From Gonapodya prolifera JEL478 (Eukaryota > Monoblepharomycota > Monoblepharidomycetes > Monoblepharidales > Gonapodyaceae): DNA of 64,000 nucleotides. The notes under the pieces were generated by a model. It was not told the DNA's origin, made no database searches, and saw only the letters and a list, made by a program, of their open reading frames with translations. Shown piece by piece: positions 4,606 through 54,989 of this stretch (within the stretch, counting starts at the first letter, position 1; each line of letters opens with the position of its first letter). The DNA lies in the NCBI GenBank assembly GCA_001574975.1, contig KQ965731.1, positions 558,001-622,000 on the forward strand, read 5' to 3'. The translations under genes and the position numbers were made by a program.

Positions 4606-4686
4606 ATTAAACAATTAAAGTCATTTTCATTTTCAATTCAAAAGTTTTGCAAACAAAAGTGTTGACAAACAAAGAAAAAAAACCGT

Positions 4687-4866
4687 GGTTCCAAAGTCCC
4701 TACGTGGATTATGCAGCGTTGCGACATTTCAACCTTTACACTCCCGTCCTCCCTTTCTAACTCCTCTCTCATCACGCCTCAAAAACCAGTGATTCCAAAA
4801 GTCCCAACGTGGATTATGCATTTTGCAGACATTCCTCACTTCAGCCTTTACCCTCCCATCACGCCC
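4687..4866 (+). repeat. Imperfect tandem duplication, about 105-bp unit
   Basis: Two diverged copies lie between the convergent ends of the transporter and the monooxygenase. Copy 1 starts near 4687 and copy 2 near 4791. Both share ACGTGGATTATGCA, a GACATT block, a CCTTTAC-CTCCC block and an ATCACGCC end. Copy 2 has lost the middle pyrimidine stretch. No coding potential is seen. Confidence 0.75.
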
Positions 4867-6259
4867 TTAGCGCCTCTGGTACTCAGCCAAGGCCTTCTCC
4901 ACATCCGCCTCGAAATTATGCGCGAGGATCTTATCATTGAGCCCAAACAGATTCTTGACGAGCACAATGGTCCTGAACACGAATCTCCCGACGCGCATCT
5001 GCACGCCCGACGAGGCCGTCCAGTGGGCCGCTACCTGGCGGGACGCGGAGGCGACAAAGTGCACGCGTTTAAGCCGGATCGAGTCGTACAGACGGAACAC
5101 AGTCGGGTGCACGTCCCCGCGCGACAGGTCTGGGAAGCGCCCGAAGAGGTCGTAGATGACGGCGCAGTCCTCGATCGCTTGGCACAGGCCCTGCCCTTGT
5201 GTGGGGAGCATGCCGTGGCCTGAGTCGCCGACGAGGAGGATTCGGCCCTGAAGATTGAGGGAACAGGGGGAAGAGAGGCTCGTTAGGAGAGGAGAAGAGC
5301 ATGAGCGGGGGAATAATAATAATACGTACCCTGTGCAGTGTGTCCATGTCGGGCAGGTCGTACATGTGCAAAGGGGTGATCCGCTTCGAGTACCGAATGG
5401 CGGCTGAGACCGATTTGGGGGCCTTCCACTCGTCCACAATGCTCGCGAGGCGGGCAGACTCCTTGGGCAGGTCCTTGTACGGCCTCCAGTCAGGATCCTC
5501 CTCGTCCTGGGGCGGACGCAGCTGCATCAAAATCCACGCGCCGGCGTTGTCTTCGGGGCAGTGCACGGTGAATATGATGCTGGCGTCGAGCGGGTCCATG
5601 TACAGTGCCATGGGGTTGTCGAAGCGCAGGGGGGCCACGCCGGGAACGCCCACGTCCATGCCGAGGTCGAACACGCCGACGTAGCCTGCTCCGACGCGCT
5701 GGGCGGGCTTGGCCTCGGGGAAGGCGAGGGTGCGAACGATGGAGTTGATTCCGTCGGCAGCGACGAGGAAGTCGGCGGTGAGCGAGGTGCGGTCGGCAAA
5801 GGTTGCAGTGACGTTGGTCGGGGTCTGCGAGACGCCCACGAGACGCTTCTCTAGGAAGAGCTGGATACCTGCGGCGTCACAGGCGCGCATGAGGATGCCG
5901 TGGAAGGTGCTTCGCAGGATCTGGATGGGTGGGTGCTCCCCGTCTCGCGATGCCGTCTGCTTCCTCCTGATGGGGTCGGTCCCGTCCATGAGCATGAATA
6001 TTATCTCCTCAGCGCCGCCCCCGGTAGCCACCATGACGTCGTCGAGGAGTCCGAGGCGATCGAGGCCACGGAGCCCATTTCCATAGAGGGAGACGGACCC
6101 TCCGACTTCCCAAAAGGGGGCGGTGTCGCCTGCCTTGTCCCCGCCGCGGTACGGTCCGCGCTTTTCGCATATGACGACGTCGAACCCTCGTTTCTTGAGT
6201 GCGAGCGCGGCAAGAGCCCCTGCCGGCCCTGCGCCAATCACCATGACGGAAGGGCCCAT
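4867..6259 (-). CDS. FAD-dependent (group A) monooxygenase
   Basis: Exons 5330-6259 and 4867-5247 with an 82-nt intron (GTACGT...CTTCAG), 436 aa. Residues 5-15 form the Rossmann FAD-binding motif VIGAGPAGAL followed by the ADP-binding helix and the acidic strand end VICEKR. A central VAADGINSIVR is the DG motif, and GRILLVGDSGHGM followed by PTQGQG is the second FAD motif that contacts the ribityl chain. This order and length match salicylate hydroxylase/kynurenine-monooxygenase-type enzymes, which use NAD(P)H and O2 to hydroxylate a substrate. The substrate cannot be told from sequence. The start at 6259 places the glycine motif at the usual distance from the N terminus. No signal peptide or clear C-terminal membrane anchor is visible. 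It faces a 1.3-kb gene-poor stretch. Confidence 0.9.
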
Positions 6260-42748: not shown

Positions 42749-44274
42749 ATGGCGAACTTTTTCCGTCTACGGCAGCGGAGACCTTCGATGGAGCACCGTC
42801 GGAAAATGAAGGAATATCTCTATGCCTCACAAAAAGTATGTTGGCTGCTTCCCCCAACCCCAGTGACGATTGGCGCTGTACCAACACTGACGCTCTGCCT
42901 GGCTCTCTTGCACTTGCCATCACCCATGCCAAAAAAATTAGTCCATCTTCGCTTCCGCGCTCAACTTCAAGGATTCTATCGCCCCGCAGGCCCTGCCCAG
43001 TCTTCTCATACTGGCAGTGTGGACGGCGCTGTTTGCTGTGTTGAATAAGCAGTTCAATGCGCAGATAACGTTGGCGTCCTCGTTGATCACGCTCGTAAGT
43101 TGTGGTCCCGTTATTGTTCACGTCAAGGACACGATGCAGCTCATTCACTCACCTCACGACCCGGCCCACCTTTCGCCCAGCTCTCGACTGTCCTCTCCCT
43201 CCTCCTCTCCTTCCGCAGTAACCAATCGTACGACAGATTCTCAGAGGGCCGCCGCCTGTGGGGCCAACTCACCGCGCAACTACGCAACATCAGCCGGGCC
43301 GGCGTGACGGGCCTGTCGGTGACGCGCACGGCCGAAAGCCACAAACGAGCGCAGAAAATTATCAGCTTCTGTGTCGCCTACGCATACGCCGTGAAACACT
43401 ACCTCAGGGCGGAGTTCGACCCGAGCCAGTGGGCGGATATGGCAGAGTACATGGAAGTGCTCGATTTTGCGGCCGTGTCTACGAAACCAAAGACGGCGGC
43501 CAAGGATCTCGTGGAGATGGCGGACGATTCGGGACTCGTGGCGCGGCAAATTGCCAATACTGGAGAAACGGAACTTGTGTCGGAACACCCCGAGAAGTTA
43601 CCTTGTGCGTCGCAGCCTCGACCCATTCTACGCGCTCAAGCTTCTTAAACCGTCGCTTTTTTTTGTAGTCCGGATTGCACAAGCCCTCTCACGGCACTTG
43701 TCACTGTGTGTGCAGGATGGCCTCGCCACGCTCTTGCCCCACATCCAGGGCTGCGAGAATGTCCTGGCGCAGGTCGTTGAGACGACTGGAAGTTTGGAAC
43801 GCATAGCATGTACTCCCGTGTACGTGCTTTCGCCAGCTATCATCCATGCTTGGTCTTTGATCCGCATGGTTCCATGTTCACAGCCCCAAACCTTACAACA
43901 TCCTCCTGCGGCAAATGCTCCTCATTTACTGCTTTTGCCTTCCGTTCCAGCTTTACAAAGATTTGGGTTACTGGATGATTCCAGTCATCTTCCTTGTCTC
44001 GTACTGCCTTATTGGTGTTGAGATGATTGCCCGACAAATTGAAATGCCGTTTGGGTTCGGTGAGTTCCAAATGCTAGCGTCCGGAGAGCCATTTGTACTC
44101 ATGAACATTCGCCGTGAAATTTGTTCTCAGATGCCAGCGAGTAAGTTCTAATGTGTCTTGCTCTGTCATGCCGAATACTTACCACTGAATTGAATTCACT
44201 TCAGCATCAACCTGGACGAGTTGTGCCATAGCTTTAAAGTGGAAATGAAGATACTTGCAGCGTCGTACGTGTAG
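42749..44274 (+). CDS. Bestrophin/UPF0187-family chloride channel
   Basis: Bestrophins form pentameric anion channels. The core exon 42940-43093 starts SIFASALNFKDSIAPQALPS and encodes the first helix LLILAVWTALFAVL. The next, about 43178 onward, carries the family hallmark SFRSNQSYDRFSEGRRLWG. A later exon encodes CENVLAQVVETTGSLERIACTP, a typical inner segment. The last part gives LLIYCFCLPF, LGYWMIPVIFLVSYCLIGVE, QIEMPFGFD and DINLDELC. The exon 44131-44140 is only 10 nt and restores the DASD sequence of the Ca-binding-loop region; the last exon is 44205-44274. The start is uncertain: Met 42749 opens one candidate frame, but another frame from 42622 is also open upstream of the 42940 acceptor. 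Confidence 0.82.
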
Positions 44275-45604: not shown

Positions 45605-48600
45605 TCAAACCGAAGTTTCAGGCTCCTCGAGAATCTTCTCCTTGGCATCTTCCGACTCATCGACCGGTTCCTCAGCCTTCTTCTTCTTCAACCGCGGGAT
45701 CAGAACAGCGATAATAGCGAGAATGGCCCAGTATCCGAAGTATCCGCAAACGGTGGCGACAGTGGCACTGTTGACGCGCGATGAGGTCAGTAATGTTGTG
45801 AATGCACAGCAACAACTCAACTTACATAGCGCGCCAGCCGCAGAGTGCGTTCATGATTTGCCAAAAGACGTTGCCTTCCTGGTCGCAGCAGCCGGAAGCG
45901 TCCCAGAGAACAGGTGTCGACTCGGGGTACTCAGGAGGCATATCCATGGGGGCGAGAGGCTTTTGCACCAACATTAGAAATTGATTCAATCAAGCTCCAA
46001 CACGTCAGCTACTCACGATAGTCCAAACGTTCTCCTCCTCAGAAGCGGCGTTCTTCACTTGGTAAGAAGTGATCATACCAGCGGAGATGTGGTCAACAAC
46101 CTGGCAAAGAGAAATTGGTTCCGGGACTTCACTCAATACACTCAGCAGGGCGATTACTTACGTGGCAGTGAATCAACCATGTACCGGGGTTGTTGGCAGT
46201 CATGTCAACAGTGCGGAATGTGGCGGGAAGGAGCTCAACGACATCGCGGCGGTGTCCCGACTCGATGAAGGTGTTTCCGTGCCAGTGGGCAGAGTGCAGA
46301 TCGACCTCGTTACCGATGGCGAATGCGTGCCAGCGGATCTTGTCTCCCTTGACGGCAACAAGACCGTCGAGGTTGTTGTACACACGGCCGTTGATGGAGT
46401 GCATCTTGTTGGACTCGTCGAAATCGTCTTTGGCGCCAATAGCGTCGACGTTGGCGTAGTCGATCAAGTTGGGGGTGTACTGGGCGATGTTGATGTCGCT
46501 GCACAATAAACAACGCGTTAGGAATTTCGGTCGCACAGTCGATTGCCACCGTCACCGCAACTTACACATAGGTAGACATACTCTCGTCAAAGACACCGAA
46601 CAGGGTAATGTACTCGTGCTGAACGTCGCGGGCTTGGTTGGTCGTGTCATTCAAGAACCCAGACCTGTACACAATGATACCACCGACGGATCCGGCGTAG
46701 ATGTCGTTGCCCTCGGTAAGGTGAGAGTGGTAACTGCAAACGTTTTAACTGATTAAAAACTAAATTTTGTATCGAGTCGAGTTCGAAAATACTCACGCCC
46801 AGAGGATCGAGTTGGGGTCGTTCACGGCAGGTCCTGTCTCCTCGGCGATCTTCCAGGTGTACTCGTAAACCTCGCCGGGGTTGACAGGGGCACCCATCAT
46901 GTTCCACTGAGTTGCAGCACCCTCAGAAGGAGGCTGGTAGATTGATCCGTGGGGGTGGATGGAAATCGGAGTGGTCGCTTGGTTCTTGAAAAAGATCTGC
47001 AAATCGGAAAACCGAAAGAAAATCAGATGGGGGGTCTTCTTCGGGGCCATAAAAAACCAACTCACCCGCACGACGTCACCGACTTCAGCGCGAATGATGG
47101 GTCCGAGGAATCCTTGCCATGCGAACTTTGCCTTACGGACACTGTAGGTGTCGTCAGTGTACTCGTAGTACACAGCTTTGATGTACTTGGACCCGATCTT
47201 GTCCGCGGCGTGGAGCGTGAACACGCCAGCAGTGTCCTTCTCCAGAACGAAGGGGAATCCCGAAACGTGGTCGTACCCAGATGGAGCTGCACGTTGCCAT
47301 AATGTCAGCGCGTGTAGACGCGAGAATGGCACCGACGGGAACGTACCGTAGTCCCACTCGAGCTCGTCAGCGGCAATGTAATAGGTGCGGACCTTGCAAG
47401 TAGTGCGGGCGGTTCCGTTGATGGAGGGGCACTCGGGGTGGGTGGTGTTCTCAATCTTGGGTGGCGAGTTTGGCACTTCCTTGACGTTGGCCTGGCGCTT
47501 GGTGCGGCGGAAGCTGTTGACCGAAACCTTGGTGATGTCGTTGGGGTACGACTTGCTGCCAAGCTGTGAGACAAAAGCCAGTCAGAACATCCGGGGCGAC
47601 TTAAGCAGCACAAGGGATTCTCACAGCAGTGACCAGGTTGTCAGGAGTGATGGGGTTAGGGAACGACGAGTACAAGGTCGAGTTGAGGTTCTGTCCGCGC
47701 TTGACGTAGGCGAACTCCTCGAACTCATGGGCAGAGTTGGCGGCGAGACCGGCGGCGATGATGAAGATGAAGATGGCAGACACGAACAGGAAGGTCTTGA
47801 GGTACAGTTTAGCGAAACCGCGGTGGAGAAGTTTGCCGACACCAAGACCGAGGACAATACCTGGTAGGAACGGGTCGGTAAGGATGGTGTGAAGGAGGAG
47901 TACAAAGTCGCAGAGACGACTTACCGATGATACCGGGGATGACAAGAGAGTAGGGCTCACCCTGACCGACACCAGTAAGGAAAATGACGGACTCGAGACC
48001 TTCACGAAGCACTACGGAGAAGGACAAGATGAAAAGGGCCCAGGGGCGGTTGGCTTCCTTCGCTTCGGCCTCCTTGGTAGCTTCGTCCTTCTTGAACGAG
48101 AAGAGCCCCAAAGCACGTTTAGCCATAGACTTAGAGGGCGCTGCCTTTTCAAGAGCCACGGCGTCGGAGCCGACAACGGTGGGAACAGATCCGTTGCGGG
48201 AAAGGCCGGTCTCTTCTTCATCTCCCTCGGGTGTTCCAAGGCGCTCCTTCTGCTCCTTCAGCATCTGTTCCTTGGTAGCCTCGGCGAGACCAGCTTTCAA
48301 CATCTTGCGCTCCCATTTACGCTCGAGGTCACCTGCGTGGAGCATACCGAAACCCATGACGGTGAGAAGAATGCAAGCAATAGTTTTGAAGGTTCCCTCC
48401 CTGTCGAAGCGAGGGTGTGAGAAAAAGGATCGGATAGTCGGGGGTGGGGCCACTCACCAGATGGGTTCGAAAGTGCCGAACACATCTTGCCTAAGAACGT
48501 AGTAGACGACCGAAAAGACAACTCCGACCACCAAGGAAATGGCAAGACCGACGCCGACGCCAAGCCAGATCTGCTTCCGAAGACGCGCCGCAAGGTTCTT

Positions 48601-48892
48601 GTGCTGACCGACAGTTTTGTCGATGAAGTTCAAGAGCACTCCAATGACGATGGCCGCCTCGAGGGCCTCACGGAAAAGAATAAAAAGTGCACCTGGTGTG
48701 GTGAAGGGTAAAAGAGAAAACGGTGTAAGCCGATGTTGCAGGTCGACGAAACGACGAAACCGCGAAACCGCCGTGATTGGAACGGAATCCTTGGCTCGAT
48801 ACTGCCATCTCATCGTCGATGGGAAGTCTCCCGCCATGTCTGATGAAGCGGTGGACCAGATGAAGCTCACCGGCGTTGAAAAGATTAGGCAT
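45605..48892 (-). CDS. Fusion of Ftr1-type iron permease and multicopper ferroxidase
   Basis: Twelve exons: 48871-48892, 48458-48692, 47925-48400, 47625-47860, 47347-47563, 47066-47286, 46797-46996, 46566-46733, 46162-46498, 46017-46100, 45826-45959, 45605-45767. Every phase closes and yields one 830-aa frame. Residues 1 to about 320 are an Ftr1/Fth1-like permease: MPNLFNAGALFILF, first REXXE motif REALEAAIVIG, second REGLESVIFLTG, and several hydrophobic helices. Residues about 323-800 are a ceruloplasmin/hephaestin-like multicopper oxidase: RTYYIAADELEWDY, then copper ligands in SIHPHG, YHSHLTEG, HSAHWHG and LIHCHVVDHISAGM (type 1, 2 and 3 sites complete). A final membrane helix (VCGYFGYWAILAII) and a short basic-acidic tail follow. 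The ferroxidase would oxidise Fe2+ outside and pass Fe3+ straight to the permease, as the separate Fet3-Ftr1 pair does in yeast. Confidence 0.92.
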
Positions 48893-50002
48893 ACTTGCTG
48901 TACCACGCTGAGATTAGAGCGTAGAGAGGAGGATTAAAGGATACCCGTGCCGGCACAGGATGAGAGGTATCGGAAATGAAAGCAGGACGAGTGCCCGTCC
49001 CTGGCGGTCTTTTATAGCAGAGCTGGTCGCCCTCACGAGGCGTTGTCCCGAGAGAGATGATTGGCGGAAAGTCCTGCGGTCACAGGCAGTTCTGAGGGCA
49101 CTTGAGATCAGAAAAGATTTCAAGATCTGTGAACTGTAAACAAGGTTGGTTGAAAAACCGAGCGTGGTCCGTCTCTATGTTTGTAGAGCTTGAAAGATCG
49201 ATGTTGTCTAGTGGCCAGGCTGCCTGCGATTAAGACTTCTCTGCGAACAAGCATCGGTGCTGAGAACGAAACCATACCACACGCCAGGTCAAAGATGCAC
49301 AACTAATTGCGAACGATTTCTCGTGCAATTTACAGTTTCTACAGTGACGTGGCGGAGCGTGGCGAGGAACCAATGGCAATAAACCCTCCCTCATCCCTCA
49401 CCCCTCACTTGGAGATACACTTTGCGATAATCTCCGCGACGGAGAACGGCCGAAATGAAATCGGGATAGGTCCTATCTTCCCTAGGGAACTAATACGTTA
49501 AATCTGTATTGTGGAGGAGTATGTGGTACTTGCTGTGTGCTCCGATGCTTATATATGGCGTCGCTATGTTCTTGCTCATTGGGCTCATTACTTCATCTGC
49601 CAGAATAACTTGAAAGTGTATAAACAAGGTAGAGGTGGACCCGTTTGACCCCGCCTGAAAGTTTGACAAATCAACCCAGCCAGGGTCAATCAACAAACAA
49701 TTCCTTCATTCGCCCTTTGCTTGATTTCACAGGTGCTGTCATGTGGCTTTGTACAAAAGCTTATCCAATCCTGCTCACAAATGCCATTTCGTTCCGCTGA
49801 AAAGTCGGGTTACAACAGACAAATCTATTGAAGGGGAACCACCCCACATGACTGACCCAGGGCCAGTGTCGACCGTCAAGGAACCAACACGCGCAAATGA
49901 TTGAGAGCGTAAGAAATAATTGTTGGAAATGAATACACGTGATATATTTTACATTGCCTCCGTTGTGTCCCATCTTTTCATCCCTGTCCGGCTATTCACA
50001 CT
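48893..50002. other. Intergenic region upstream of the iron-uptake gene
   Basis: 1.1 kb between the start of the permease-ferroxidase gene and the 3' end of the phosphatase gene. No credible coding frame, RNA gene or repeat was noticed. A GATAA sequence occurs near 49423; GATA-type factors repress iron uptake in many fungi, but a single GATAA is expected by chance. Confidence 0.55.
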
Positions 50003-53000
50003 TCAAGCCCACTCGCCAACGTCCATCACCATCACAGTACAATCATCCCACTGCTCTGTTCCAACTTTACACACCCGGTTCAGATCCGCCTTCCTGTCGC
50101 ACAGACTTCTCACGGCCATGTCGAGTCGGTTCTTGATCTCGTAGAGGCCACCACCTGAACTGGTCGCGCCATTCGTTGATGCTGCCGCACCACTCGCCAC
50201 CACCTTGTGCCTCCTCTCTTGACCTGCCCCTGCCCCTGCGTCACCGTCACTCTCCTTCTCGAGCCATTTGGTGAGGACACCGGCAACCACCCGTGCCTGT
50301 TCTTCCGCCCTGCACACGTCCCGCTCCATTGCGTCCCACAGACCGTCCGTGGCCATCACAATCAAGTATCGCCTGGTGCGATCGAGCCTTGTCCAACGCA
50401 CGTCGGCCTCCACACGAAACACGCGGGGTTCTAGCTTGAGCACCAGGTTGCCGAGACAGTCAGACAGGTTCACGTTTTGGTCCGGTTTCAATCCCAACTC
50501 CGCCACGTCCGGGTGCCGGAACCCCGCCGGTCTCTGGACCCTTCCCGCCCTCAATTTCTCGTAGTGTCGGTACGTTGCCCTGCTCGTGCTCGCACCAGTG
50601 GCACTCTTGCCACTACCAACCATTCTCGTTCCCGGTTCCCTCACATCCTCTCCGGCCCGCGCCACCTCCCTCGCCCCATGCTTCCCAGCCGACGCCCACA
50701 AAATCTCGCCGGATCCTTTCCCCTCGCCTACGATCTGCCACGCCTTGACGGGATGTCCTGGGTCCATATCCTCACTCACGAATGCGACCTCAAACCTGGT
50801 CCGTGAGCGAGGCTTGGAGGCAAGCACCGCCGTTCGGGTATCACCAAGCGTCACGGTCGCCACCCAATCTTCATCCCTTTCCCGATGACCATCAGCAGAC
50901 CCCATGACCACGACATTGACCGCAATTGTGCACCCATCGTCCGCCGGCCGATCACTATCCTTGCCTCCTTGCCTCTTCCACTCCGAAAACCGCTCCCTCT
51001 GCTCCCGCAAATAGATTTCGTCCGTTTCCTTCACCACCCGCTTCAGAATATCCCCAACGGCGACCCGGTCAGTGAGATTCGCCATCGTCCCAAAGACCTC
51101 CTTGATGAGCTCGGGAAGCTTCGTGGACGCAAACATGGCGCACCTCGGTCCCCCATGTCCATCAGCTAGGACGAAAATGTGGTACGTTGTGCCTGAAGGG
51201 CCGTGTGTCACAGGTGTGTGCACAGAGTAGATGTCTTCGCATGTTGGGTGGGCAAGCGTGCGAGTGGGAGGGACTCCGGGCTTGGTTTCGACAGTATATC
51301 CTGCAGAAACGTGTGATGTAATTGTAAGGGTTGTGGAATGCGAATAGTGAGCATCACCGTCGAAACGCAACAACCCCCCGATACACTTCAAGTCACCTGT
51401 CTCCTGAGCAACGCTCACCGCGACACTTCGCCTATTCCTACCGACCGCTCCAAACCCCTCGTGCGCGTCCTCGCTGCTGTGTACACTATTCGGTCCTTCA
51501 TCTGCAAGGTCCTCTCCTTCATCCATTCCTACACTCTCCAAGAAAAAACTCGGGCTTACACCCAGCTCCTCCGCCCGCCGTCTCAATTCTTCTTGGTTGC
51601 CGGTATCGATCGTACTTGGTTCCTTCCCCGCGTCCTCCATTCCTTCTTCCTGGCCGCCTTCTCCAATCTCTCGCGAAACTGCCGTCGCCATAAGGCTTAC
51701 ATCCACCACACCAGGAGGGCTCGGATCTTCGGGGGTGCCCCTTCCCGTAGGTGGAACAATAGCCGCCGGCGCTCCAGCAGCCATGTGTGCCGGTTCTTCC
51801 TCCCGTGGGGGGAGGTAGAGCCCCACCAAGTTGGTCGCCTGTATCGCCAGAACAGGCGTCTTCCGCCCCCCCGCATCTCCATCCACCTCGTCCCAGATCC
51901 TATCACTCCTTTGCTCTACCTGCGCAGCTTCTCCCCTCATTGCGTCTCCGGACCTTGGTGGCGACACCATTACTGGCGTCCTAGCCCGTTTCCTCCTTGG
52001 CGGAGTCCCCGGGTTCCCAGTGACCCCGTTGCGCCCCGAGTGGACTCCATTGGGAAGCTGCTCCTGAGGTCCGACGACAACCGATCCAACCCCCGCACCC
52101 GTCGGAACCATCCCCTGACCGGCCGTTGTCGGTGCACCTCTCTTCCCTCTGCGTACCTCGGCACTCCTCAAAACAATCGCATCCGTGAGATCCACACAAA
52201 ATGAAAGCTCACTCCGATCCGTCGGCGACGCGTCCTCTTCCTCTTCCCCCTCTTCCTCACCACCCACACCACGTCTTCCCCTGTCCTCGGCATCAGCCAC
52301 GACTGCCGTTGCCGCTGCATGGCCAACTTGGTCCCCGTCGGGAGGGGTTTGAAACCCGCCCGTCGACGTGCTTTGTTCGTCGCCACTCCTCTTATCCCTG
52401 ACCGCTATCTCTGCATCCACCCCTCGCCCGCGCCTTCTTCCCCTTGGCGGACTCGGTGGCACTTCGTGTGGGGAAGTTGAGCTGGCTTGGGACGGAGGAG
52501 ACGGGCTTCGAGCGGCTCTTGTGCGGGTGGCGCGGGTGGTCGGGTGTACGGAGGGAGGAGGGTCAGGTTTCCGAGTCTTGCTGAGGTGCACCCCCACATG
52601 CCGTAAAGACGATGCGCCCGGCAAGTCGTCCGCGATGTCGGGATGAGCCGCGTCCGCCAGTACAATAGAATGCGCCTTCGATGGCTTCCCCAGACCCGTC
52701 GTCTCCCTCCCCGCGCGCCCACTTAATCCCTTTTGCGCCTGGGACATCTGACCACCTTGGTCCGGTTCCTTGGCCTTCTTCCCTCGAGTCATCAGCGCGG
52801 GTGTCGCGTCACCCGTCTCGTCACCAAGACGTGGTTTCTTTCTAACCGCCACAACCACTGAAACTTCAAGTTCCACACCTGCTCCATCAGCCACCGCAGC
52901 AACCATGCGTTCTTCCCTGTTCCGGCCGCGCTTGCGCTTCCCCCTCGCAGTTCCCACATCTTCGCTCTCCCGTCCAGCAACTACCTCGACACTCTCAGGC

Positions 53001-54989
53001 GCGTGAGGCCTCGCACCACGAGCCAAGACCTCCTCCCCACCACCAGGCACGTCGCTCGATCCAGCAACCCCTCGTCGACTCCTGCGTGCGCGCGGCGGAT
53101 GATCAACAGTATTGTCCGGATGCGACGGGCCCGGACCAGAAGCGGCTGCCTCAGGATCAGCAGACGCCGCGCCGTGGGCCTCATCACCATTGATGTTTGG
53201 ATCGGGCCCTTTCTGGACCATGGGGCCAGCACGCTTGCGCATCTTTTCGGTAGCTCCTTGGCTGTCGGCGCTCTGCGGCTTCCCAACGTCCTTGAATGTA
53301 CTGAGGCCCTCCGTTGGCGCAGAACCGTCCGGTGCACCGCGAGCAACACGTCGTGGCTTCTTGGGCGCAGCGTTGGCATCGTCGCGGTCGTCTTTGTCGT
53401 TTCGGTCAGGAAGAGCAGGCACGGGGCTATCCGACGTGCTTGCTAAAGGCCCTGCGTGATCGGGGGGCGCAGTCTCACCCACGGCCTTCCTGCCACCACG
53501 ACGAAGCTTCGTGTTCTGTGACTCCACAACCTCTGTGCCCTGTTTGAGAGCACCTGCCACGCCCGACGCTGGGTTGGGCAGCTCCGGCTCCAAGAGCACG
53601 GAGGAGCCAGCTCCTTGCCGACCCTTGCGGCCGCCCCTCATGACGTCCCCAATACCGTGTCCCCGTTGCTCGTTCCCACCGTTCAACGTCCCGTTTGTAA
53701 GCTCCCACGCGTCGCTACCACCCGTCCCGTCAAGGTTTTCCACGCCACCACGCTTTCGTGTCATACCACGTCCCTCCTTCTTTCCGTCTCCCTTCACCGG
53801 GCCCGTGTGGGGCTCAGGCTCGTTCATGGGCAGCTTAGTTCGATAAACCGCCCGCGTTGCACGTACGCGCTTGCGGGAGGGTTCGGCGTCCGCGGGAGAG
53901 TCCAGGTCGGTATTTGCGTCAACGTCTGGATTGAGTTCCACGGGCGCAGACACGTCAGCGTCACCCGAGGGACCATCCCCTCCTGGCGCGCCGCTTCCCG
54001 ACTCCCGTGCAGCATCCGCACCGTCCACCTTCATGGACAGCGGCGAGAGTTCAGTTCGCGCGGCGAGGACGGCGGCCGAAACTGGGGGCGCGGGTCCCAG
54101 TTTGGTCTGTTTGCGAGGCGTGAGCTGTGAGGGCCGTGCTGGGACTGTGGTCTTGCGGGCGCGTTTGGGTTTGGGTTTGGTCGATGCCGATGATGGGAGG
54201 GGGAAATCGAGCGGTTGCGACAGCGGGACGTCCCAGATGGACTGCGAGGTGCTGGGACTGCTGTGACGGGAATTGGGATCGGGGTAAGGCTGAGACACCA
54301 GAAAGGATGCGGGGCACATACCTTGGCATTGCGCGGTGTATTGGACGTGGTTTCACGCGGGGAGTGGAGCTAATTCTGTGCACAGAGTGATCTCCGAGCG
54401 GCGGCTCACGCGATGATGATGCGATCGCCAACGCGCGTAGAGCGGGTGGCATGGTGGCAGCGGGAGCAAAAGCAAGAGCAGGAGTCAGGTCAGGAGAAGA
54501 GGGCGAGGGAGGATTGAAGCGCGGACGTGTTGGGATGGACGTCAGAGAGCGGAGTCCGGTGGGCGTTGCGTTCTCGGTACGGTCGACTCGCGGCGTTGCC
54601 ACGAGGCGAGTGGTATTGGTGGCGTGCATGGCTTGGTTCGCGTGAGACGAGTCGACTGTTCGGGTTTTCGGGTGCGGTGGTTCCTTTGTCGTCTGTGGTT
54701 CACGCGCCGCCACTCGTTTCAATCCCTGCTTCGCCTTCGTCGCCGTCTGTCCCATCGTACCTCTCCTCATCGCTTCTCTGGCGTCTTTTTCCTCCTCGCC
54801 GCCCTCTTGGTCGTCGTCACCCTCGGTCAGCACCCCGTCGCTGCTGTTGTCGCCATCCACCCCGGCCCCCCTCGCGACAAAGACTCTTCTCTTCCTGCTT
54901 GCGTACGTTGCCCGTGTCTTGTGTCGAATGTGCAGCGACGTTGCCATCAGCGGGGCGTCCTCCTCGAGTGAGCTGGTGGGGACATCCAT
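50003..54989 (-). CDS. Very long PP2C-type Ser/Thr phosphatase with disordered N terminus
   Basis: Exon 1 runs 54989-54357; the large exon 54289-50003 follows a 67-nt intron in phase 0 and probably includes a further 60-nt in-frame intron near 51303-51362. The protein is about 1,600 aa. Roughly the first 1,200 residues are low-complexity, rich in Arg, Gly, Pro, Ser and Asp with many basic clusters (KPKPKRARK, RKRRVF) that would suit the nucleus. The last 420 residues are a PP2C (PPM) domain: VLADGHGGPR (metal-binding Asp and Gly), DDGCTIAVNVV, VTLGDTRTAVL, LIVMATDGLWDAM and QWDDCTVMVM at the end. The usual DN of the last metal motif reads DD here. The Met at 54989 is the first good candidate; an upstream open frame extends to 55088 but has no clear ATG. 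Confidence 0.78.

Follow-up and report, generated by a model that had tools for sequence, protein, structure and literature searches.

High-affinity iron uptake in yeast depends on two proteins, the multicopper oxidase Fet3 and the permease Ftr1. According to the passages on yeast in a 2025 review, Ftr1 is predicted to have seven helices, with the N-terminus outside and the C-terminus inside the cell. Its extracellular loop 6 is needed for the interaction with Fet3 and takes part in passing on Fe3+, and a DXXE motif in this loop (DASE) has been reported as required, with involvement in Fet3 binding and channelling (PMC11817551). Arguments on how Fe3+ gets from Fet3 to Ftr1 without escaping have drawn on chelator kinetics and on mutants, and the review states that no report of Ftr1 purification was found (PMC11817551). 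Here we describe a gene of the flagellate fungus Gonapodya prolifera JEL478 that is predicted to join an FTR1 permease and a ferroxidase in one chain. It lies at 45605-48892 on the minus strand of a 64,000-nucleotide stretch of contig KQ965731.1 (positions 558,001 to 622,000), hereafter the window.

In ceruloplasmin, the domain-6 Fe2+ site is given in the relevant part of the review as E935, H940 and D1025 together with E272, the last contributed by domain 2 (PMC11817551). Two-domain oxidases, as described in the sections of another paper that deal with them, form trimers in which neighbouring monomers jointly bind the trinuclear cluster, and a C-terminal type 1 (T1) copper defines their type B (PMC13151041). 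In Lichtheimia corymbifera, three of the four FTR1 copies adjoin oxidase genes, each as a separate gene in the passage concerned (PMC4133162). A first-pass annotation of the window, made from its letters, knew of no described case in which FTR1 and a multicopper oxidase are naturally fused, and we likewise found none in open-licence PMC texts, by title, abstract or passages; nor did any paper among these texts mention PF03239 and PF07732 together. The fused gene is unlike any Fet3-Ftr1 arrangement that we found described. We consider it probable that it encodes a single-chain high-affinity iron importer, with a ceruloplasmin-repeat ferroxidase inserted in the FTR1 loop between helices 6 and 7.

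Gene model and predicted topology

In the spliced model the gene has 12 exons in one frame of 830 codons plus stop, as the first-pass annotation had read it at these positions. All 11 introns have GT-AG ends; the first is 178 nt long and the others 57-69 nt. Exons 1-4 (48892-48871, 48692-48458, 48400-47925 and 47860-47625; minus strand throughout, as for all features of the gene) encode FTR1 helices 1-6 within aa 1-323, assigned by Pfam and hydropathy. Exons 5-10 (47563-47347, 47286-47066, 46996-46797, 46733-46566, 46498-46162 and 46100-46017) form a cassette that encodes the oxidase and its flanking linkers (aa 324-732). Exons 11-12 (45959-45826 and 45767-45605) encode what we assign as the end of loop 6, the FTR1 CC...GW signature, transmembrane helix 7 (TM7, aa 776-803) and a cytoplasmic tail. 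Pfam places three domains on the single chain: FTR1 at aa 9-301 (E 1.6e-38), Cu-oxidase_3 at aa 448-559 and Cu-oxidase_2 at aa 622-721.

The permease part matches the FTR1 profile (PF03239) with 133 bits, against a cut-off of 25.3, over profile positions 4-219 of 284. It carries both REXXE motifs that had been annotated, and these are the only two in the protein: REALE in TM1 (48658-48672, aa 15-19) and REGLE in TM4 (47992-48006, aa 218-222). Residues R15, E16, L18 and E19 of the first motif and R218, E219, G220 and E222 of the second are invariant in an alignment of four FTR1 sequences, as is E87, in a WEG motif, which may be equivalent to yeast E89. Nine FTR1 rows of one alignment failed to align to the permease part where looked at and enter no count. 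No sequence in the PDB copy searched matches this FTR1 up to E 10.

By hydropathy, six helices precede the oxidase (aa 7-35, 47-79, 88-111, 207-227, 234-257 and 259-291) and one follows it. Behind the oxidase, the segment aa 749-803 (VLWDASGCCDQEGNVFWQIMNALCGWRAIATVATVCGYFGYWAILAIIAVLIPRL) includes CC...WQIMNALCGW and resembles the tail of another FTR1 of the same genome, located on contig C107, whose exon pieces were read off the translation and joined by eye. The BLOSUM62 score between the two is 80, against a shuffle mean of 25.6 (sd 4.9), and none of 5000 shuffles reached it, nor did any of 5000 that kept the hydrophobic pattern. Taken by itself, the C107 tail aligns with positions 190-276 of the FTR1 profile. 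Against the FTR1 tails of two bacterial loci, the same segment gave a weak signal with L046 (32 of 5000 shuffles scored as high) and none with L081 (2440 of 5000). Joining aa 1-299 to aa 749-830 raised the FTR1 score from 138.1 bits for aa 1-323 alone (profile 4-219) to 144.2 bits (profile 4-273), a modest gain taken without a shuffled-tail control; with more of the linker kept (aa 1-323 joined to aa 733-830) the match was not extended (136.5 bits).

The six helices upstream and the FTR1-like tail downstream therefore point to an oxidase that, with its linkers, is nested inside extracellular loop 6 between helices 6 and 7, and to a C-terminal helix that is the TM7 of FTR1 and not an oxidase anchor. 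The first-pass annotation had proposed a different anatomy, in which a complete permease leads, at the junction 47563/47625, straight into an oxidase that has a membrane helix of its own. One hydrophobic helix indeed comes after the oxidase, and the C107 oxidase likewise ends in a hydrophobic stretch, but the permease stops after helix 6 ahead of the oxidase, and the segment behind the oxidase both matches an FTR1 tail and lengthens the FTR1 profile match when joined to the front part. We regard this end-to-end arrangement as very improbable. The accompanying proposal, that one chain would fix the stoichiometry and favour channelling, stands up well as a reading of the sequence.

The cassette is bounded by phase-0 introns on both edges, introns 4 and 10. 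Intron 4 (47564-47624, 61 nt) links permease helices 1-6 with the cassette, and the junction 47563/47625, annotated as phase 0, is also in frame. Such edges fit exon shuffling without proving it, and they may be due to chance because 4 of the 11 introns are in phase 0. The intron 4 junction falls outside the homology coverage, a point in favour of two genes or transcripts wrongly joined there. That explanation is highly unlikely: with intron 4 left unspliced, reading ends at a stop inside the intron and yields a permease without TM7, the helix that the permease needs sits downstream of the oxidase, and no upstream in-frame ATG with a signal peptide is seen by eye for the oxidase half. The 61 nt of the intron, with normal GT-AG ends, also leave scant room for a promoter and a poly(A) site.

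The five introns inside the oxidase fall where intronless prokaryotic relatives align without an insertion or deletion, in 35, 49, 49, 40 and 49 of 49 rows, respectively. Bacterial contamination as the source of the gene was ruled out because the gene has 11 introns. Judged by its sequence, the fused gene is intact and real. Decay does occur in the FTR1 family, since a copy on contig C45 looks broken by frame changes when read by eye; a dead or degrading gene is nevertheless scarcely credible here, with 830 codons open and every splice site and all 12 copper ligands intact.

The charge of the segments suggests that the oxidase lies outside the cell. Lysine and arginine (K/R) number 5, 19, 3 and 6 in the predicted inner segments and 0 in the three short outer segments, and the long outer segment has 37 in 484 aa.

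Copper and iron sites of the oxidase

Against ceruloplasmin (5n0k_A), the insert scores 233.5, 229.5 and 262.0 bits with the three repeats, and for this reason we take it to be one two-domain ceruloplasmin repeat. It had been annotated as a complete ceruloplasmin/hephaestin-like oxidase; the likeness to ceruloplasmin holds, whereas the completeness does not, as only one of three two-domain repeats is present. Two cupredoxin domains are found, with T1 copper in the C-terminal one as in type B two-domain oxidases, and not the six domains in one chain that characterize ceruloplasmin.

For comparison we used prokaryotic loci found by the pattern HCHVxDHxxxGM. There are at least 116 of these, and the sample is biased to this pattern because it was picked with it. 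The alignment has 49 rows, drawn from 71 blastp rows whose query span was 320 or more. The annotation had listed all copper ligands as present, and the alignment bears this out for 12 of 12, namely the four T1 ligands (H660, C703, H708 and M713) and eight trinuclear histidines (H483, H485, H538, H540, H663, H665, H702 and H704). All are identical in 49 of 49 prokaryotic rows, which for residues 702-704, 708 and 713 holds by construction since the search pattern fixes them, together with D707. The domain-1 trinuclear ligands of the HPH motif (aa 483-485) are encoded at 46949-46957, both histidines being present in 49 of 49 rows. The pattern-fixed HCH motif (aa 702-704; 46162-46170, at the end of exon 9) combines the T1 cysteine with two trinuclear histidines. 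D707 of the iron site and the T1 ligands H708 and M713 (46074-46094, aa 707-713) align with D1025, H1026 and M1031 of human ceruloplasmin (1kcw_A).

The iron site of ceruloplasmin is also represented. In the alignment with 1kcw_A, with positions counted by hand, ceruloplasmin E935, H940, D1025 and E272 correspond to E620, H625, D707 and E656 of the fused protein. Among the 49 prokaryotic rows, E620 is kept in 44, H625 in 43, E656 in 46 and the pattern-fixed D707 in 49. Because the ceruloplasmin iron site spans two repeats, and because two-domain oxidases share the trinuclear cluster across the subunits of a trimer, the fused protein is predicted to be a homotrimer.

Relatives of the oxidase in prokaryotes

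Identity between the insert and the 49 aligned prokaryotic two-domain oxidases is 40-49%. The eight best blastp relatives among the loci listed, with 44-47% identity over 341-360 positions, belong to Chloroflexota, Nitrososphaerota, Bacteroidota and Pseudomonadota (including Colwellia). In a phmmer search with nearly the same query as the ceruloplasmin comparison, 42 of the 116 listed loci scored above 262 bits, with a maximum of 333. In a tree built from the insert, two ceruloplasmin repeats and the 49 prokaryotic oxidases, branches are long and support is weak (93/65 and 90/71) for the placement of the insert beside two Bacteroidota sequences and close to ceruloplasmin; we draw no origin from it. 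Collections of genome contigs and of viral contigs gave no confirmed close relative of the oxidase, and a viral profile search likewise gave none. Seven weak FTR1 relatives were found on viral contigs, six of which were used solely as alignment rows.

An FTR1-like open frame accompanies the oxidase at 3 of the 116 listed loci. At two bacterial loci, L046 (2410-4273) and L081 (1900-3971), an FTR1 gene confirmed by Pfam lies directly downstream of the oxidase gene on the same strand, at a gap of about 60 and 180 nt, respectively, if translation starts at the first ATG. These pairs are a possible bacterial ferroxidase-permease system. At the third locus, L059, the FTR1-like frame is about 1 kb away from an oxidase that appears in pieces. 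This frame (4680-5726), read by eye, continues into a CxH...CxxH stretch that resembles a Rieske iron-sulphur domain. FTR1 is present in 12 of the 40 searched genomes that carry an oxidase of this pattern. The neighbouring genes at bacterial loci mean that this oxidase type is associated with FTR1 outside the fused gene as well, and the association is uncommon in the sample.

At four loci (L080, L073, L090 and L114) the oxidase is preceded by a long stretch in its open frame. These frames, taken from stop to stop, were considered as further permease fusions and rejected, as they have no REXXE motif and no FTR1 blastp match. L080, L073 and L090 have one hydrophobic stretch each. The frame of L114 (2368-4050, minus strand) has four, followed by a ceruloplasmin-like oxidase, and these four stretches make it a candidate for another type of membrane-attached oxidase.

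Iron uptake genes elsewhere in the genome

The G. prolifera genome comprises 47.6 Mb; searches of it can miss matches, so the counts are of matches found. It has radial-spoke matches as well as 36 matches to chitin synthase, each exon counted separately, as fits a flagellate fungus and most probably a chytrid. PF03239 matches occur at four places, the fused gene and contigs C107, C55 and C45. On each of these three contigs the FTR1 gene adjoins Cu-oxidase matches on the opposite strand, so that the genome has the ordinary arrangement of two genes as well as the fused one. Of the three oxidases, that on C107 was read; it ends in HIEWHLESGL followed by its hydrophobic stretch, an ending that we take to be typical of Fet3. 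A strong ceruloplasmin-like domain match was found solely at the fused gene. Elsewhere in the genome the insert has three weak matches, the best on C159 (E 2.8e-4), and the oxidases adjacent to FTR1 on C107, C55 and C45 are not among the genome matches to the insert. For that reason, nothing indicates that the insert was copied from the FET3-like genes of this genome.

The FTR1 copies on C107 (44014-45241) and C55 (118974-120252) are near-identical by eye, each with its opposite-strand oxidase neighbour, and represent either a recent duplication or uncollapsed alleles. Both read open by eye. The C45 copy (50614-51533, locus L005) seems broken when read by eye, with frame changes and a stop in the CC...GW exon.

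Elsewhere in the window, a Bestrophin-like gene is found at 43049-44148 on the plus strand, two pieces of which match Pfam Bestrophin_2 (E 3.6e-23 and 1.5e-18). On the minus strand, at 50003-54352, a single open frame of 1449 codons has a long N-terminal part of low complexity; close to its C-terminus it matches PP2C phosphatase weakly (E 3.1e-4).

Proposed function

In the mechanism that we propose, Fe2+ would bind at the E620/H625/D707 site, with E656 supplied by the neighbouring subunit, and would give up an electron to the T1 copper (H660, C703, H708 and M713). Four such electrons would reduce O2 at the trinuclear cluster, to which domains 1 and 2 each contribute half of the ligands and which would form between neighbouring subunits. 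The homotrimer would thus present a ceruloplasmin-like ring of three oxidase units above three permeases, and Fe3+ would pass straight into the pore with its two REXXE motifs, with no DXXE relay of the yeast kind. Function as a self-contained importer is likely. The trimeric arrangement, in which the loop-6 repeats close the ring, three interfacial clusters and iron sites stand over three FTR1 pores, and Fe3+ is handed over internally with the DXXE relay dispensed with, we put forward tentatively, with slightly more doubt than confidence. The sequence itself shows how the gene is built, the nesting, the ligands for copper and iron and the lack of DXXE in the linkers, and charge suggests the orientation; expression, trimerisation, ferroxidase activity, import and channelling are all properties that we infer.

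The simplest reading of the insertion site is that the oxidase took the place of the part of the loop that met a separate oxidase. The loop-6 linkers (aa 292-370 and 714-775) contain no DXXE, a reported functional feature of Ftr1 that lies outside the Pfam definition. The protein has six D-x-x-E motifs in all, three inside the oxidase (389, 617 and 677) and three in inner segments (146, 813 and 817); a DASG at 752-755 lacks the Glu of the motif. By eye, DVAE is present in loop 6 of the C107 and C55 copies.

The missing DXXE is one of several observations that count against a self-contained importer. With three ordinary FTR1/oxidase pairs kept in the genome, the fused protein may play a secondary part. 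It may also be the oddity of a single species, G. prolifera being the sole eukaryote whose genome was compared. The protein has five N-glycosylation sequons; N155 falls in the predicted inner loop and the other four lie in the outer part, so the sequons are no proof of topology. Upstream of the gene (48893-50002) we found one CGATAA and one CTATCT as GATA-type sites, neither convincing; the scan says little, since the C107 pair has no such site and the C55 pair one.

The ordinary pairs and the linkers devoid of DXXE would also suit a real nested protein with another job. Fet5-Fth1 is the vacuolar iron exporter of yeast, and the fused protein might act as such an exporter, protect against copper as a cuprous oxidase, or be a ferroxidase for which the permease is a mere anchor. 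Against these roles stand the two retained REXXE motifs, the retained E87 and an Fe2+ site with all its residues, which together favour the oxidation and passage of iron; we judge another job to be unlikely and retain the single-chain importer as the preferred reading.

If the importer exists as proposed, a single protein of a flagellate fungus would both oxidise iron and take it up. A nested pair, fixed at 1:1 and tethered at the loop linked to channelling, would be a natural construct for structural work and for direct tests of channelling. A single-repeat stage has been proposed in the ancestry of ceruloplasmin, and the fungal protein, if the reading is true, would be at such a stage and already linked to iron transport.

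Comparison with known systems

The fungal two-domain protein FOYG_17127 of Fusarium oxysporum has been compared with ceruloplasmin domains 1 and 6 and modelled as a trimer, according to the sections of the paper that treat it (PMC6994591). It differs from the fused protein in being described as secreted; it is attributed to horizontal transfer, and the main text of the paper does not mention FTR1 (PMC6994591).

The prokaryotic type B two-domain oxidases share with the insert the 40-49% identity of the 49 rows, the ligand layout and the T1 copper in domain 2. None of those examined is joined to FTR1, whereas the oxidase of the fused gene is embedded in a membrane permease. At L046 and L081 the same oxidase type adjoins FTR1 on one strand, but as two genes and not as one chain.

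What ceruloplasmin and hephaestin have in common with the insert is its match to every ceruloplasmin repeat (229.5-262.0 bits) and the complete set of four domain-6 iron-site residues. They differ in having three repeats where the fused protein has one, with all its trinuclear and T1 ligands in that repeat. Their partner, as given in the corresponding part of the review, is the exporter ferroportin (PMC11817551), while that of the fused protein is an importer.

Yeast Fet3-Ftr1, as far as the passages on this pair describe it, has the same two activities, the same permease family with both REXXE motifs, an oxidase on the outside and coupling at extracellular loop 6 (PMC11817551). Its loop 6 carries DXXE, which the linkers of the fused protein lack. 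The yeast activities reside in two chains, whereas the G. prolifera gene would place them in one, with the oxidase nested in loop 6 and ceruloplasmin-like instead of Fet3-like. Ceruloplasmin-type oxidation would thereby be joined to FTR1 in a fungus, where the usual partner of this permease is Fet3.

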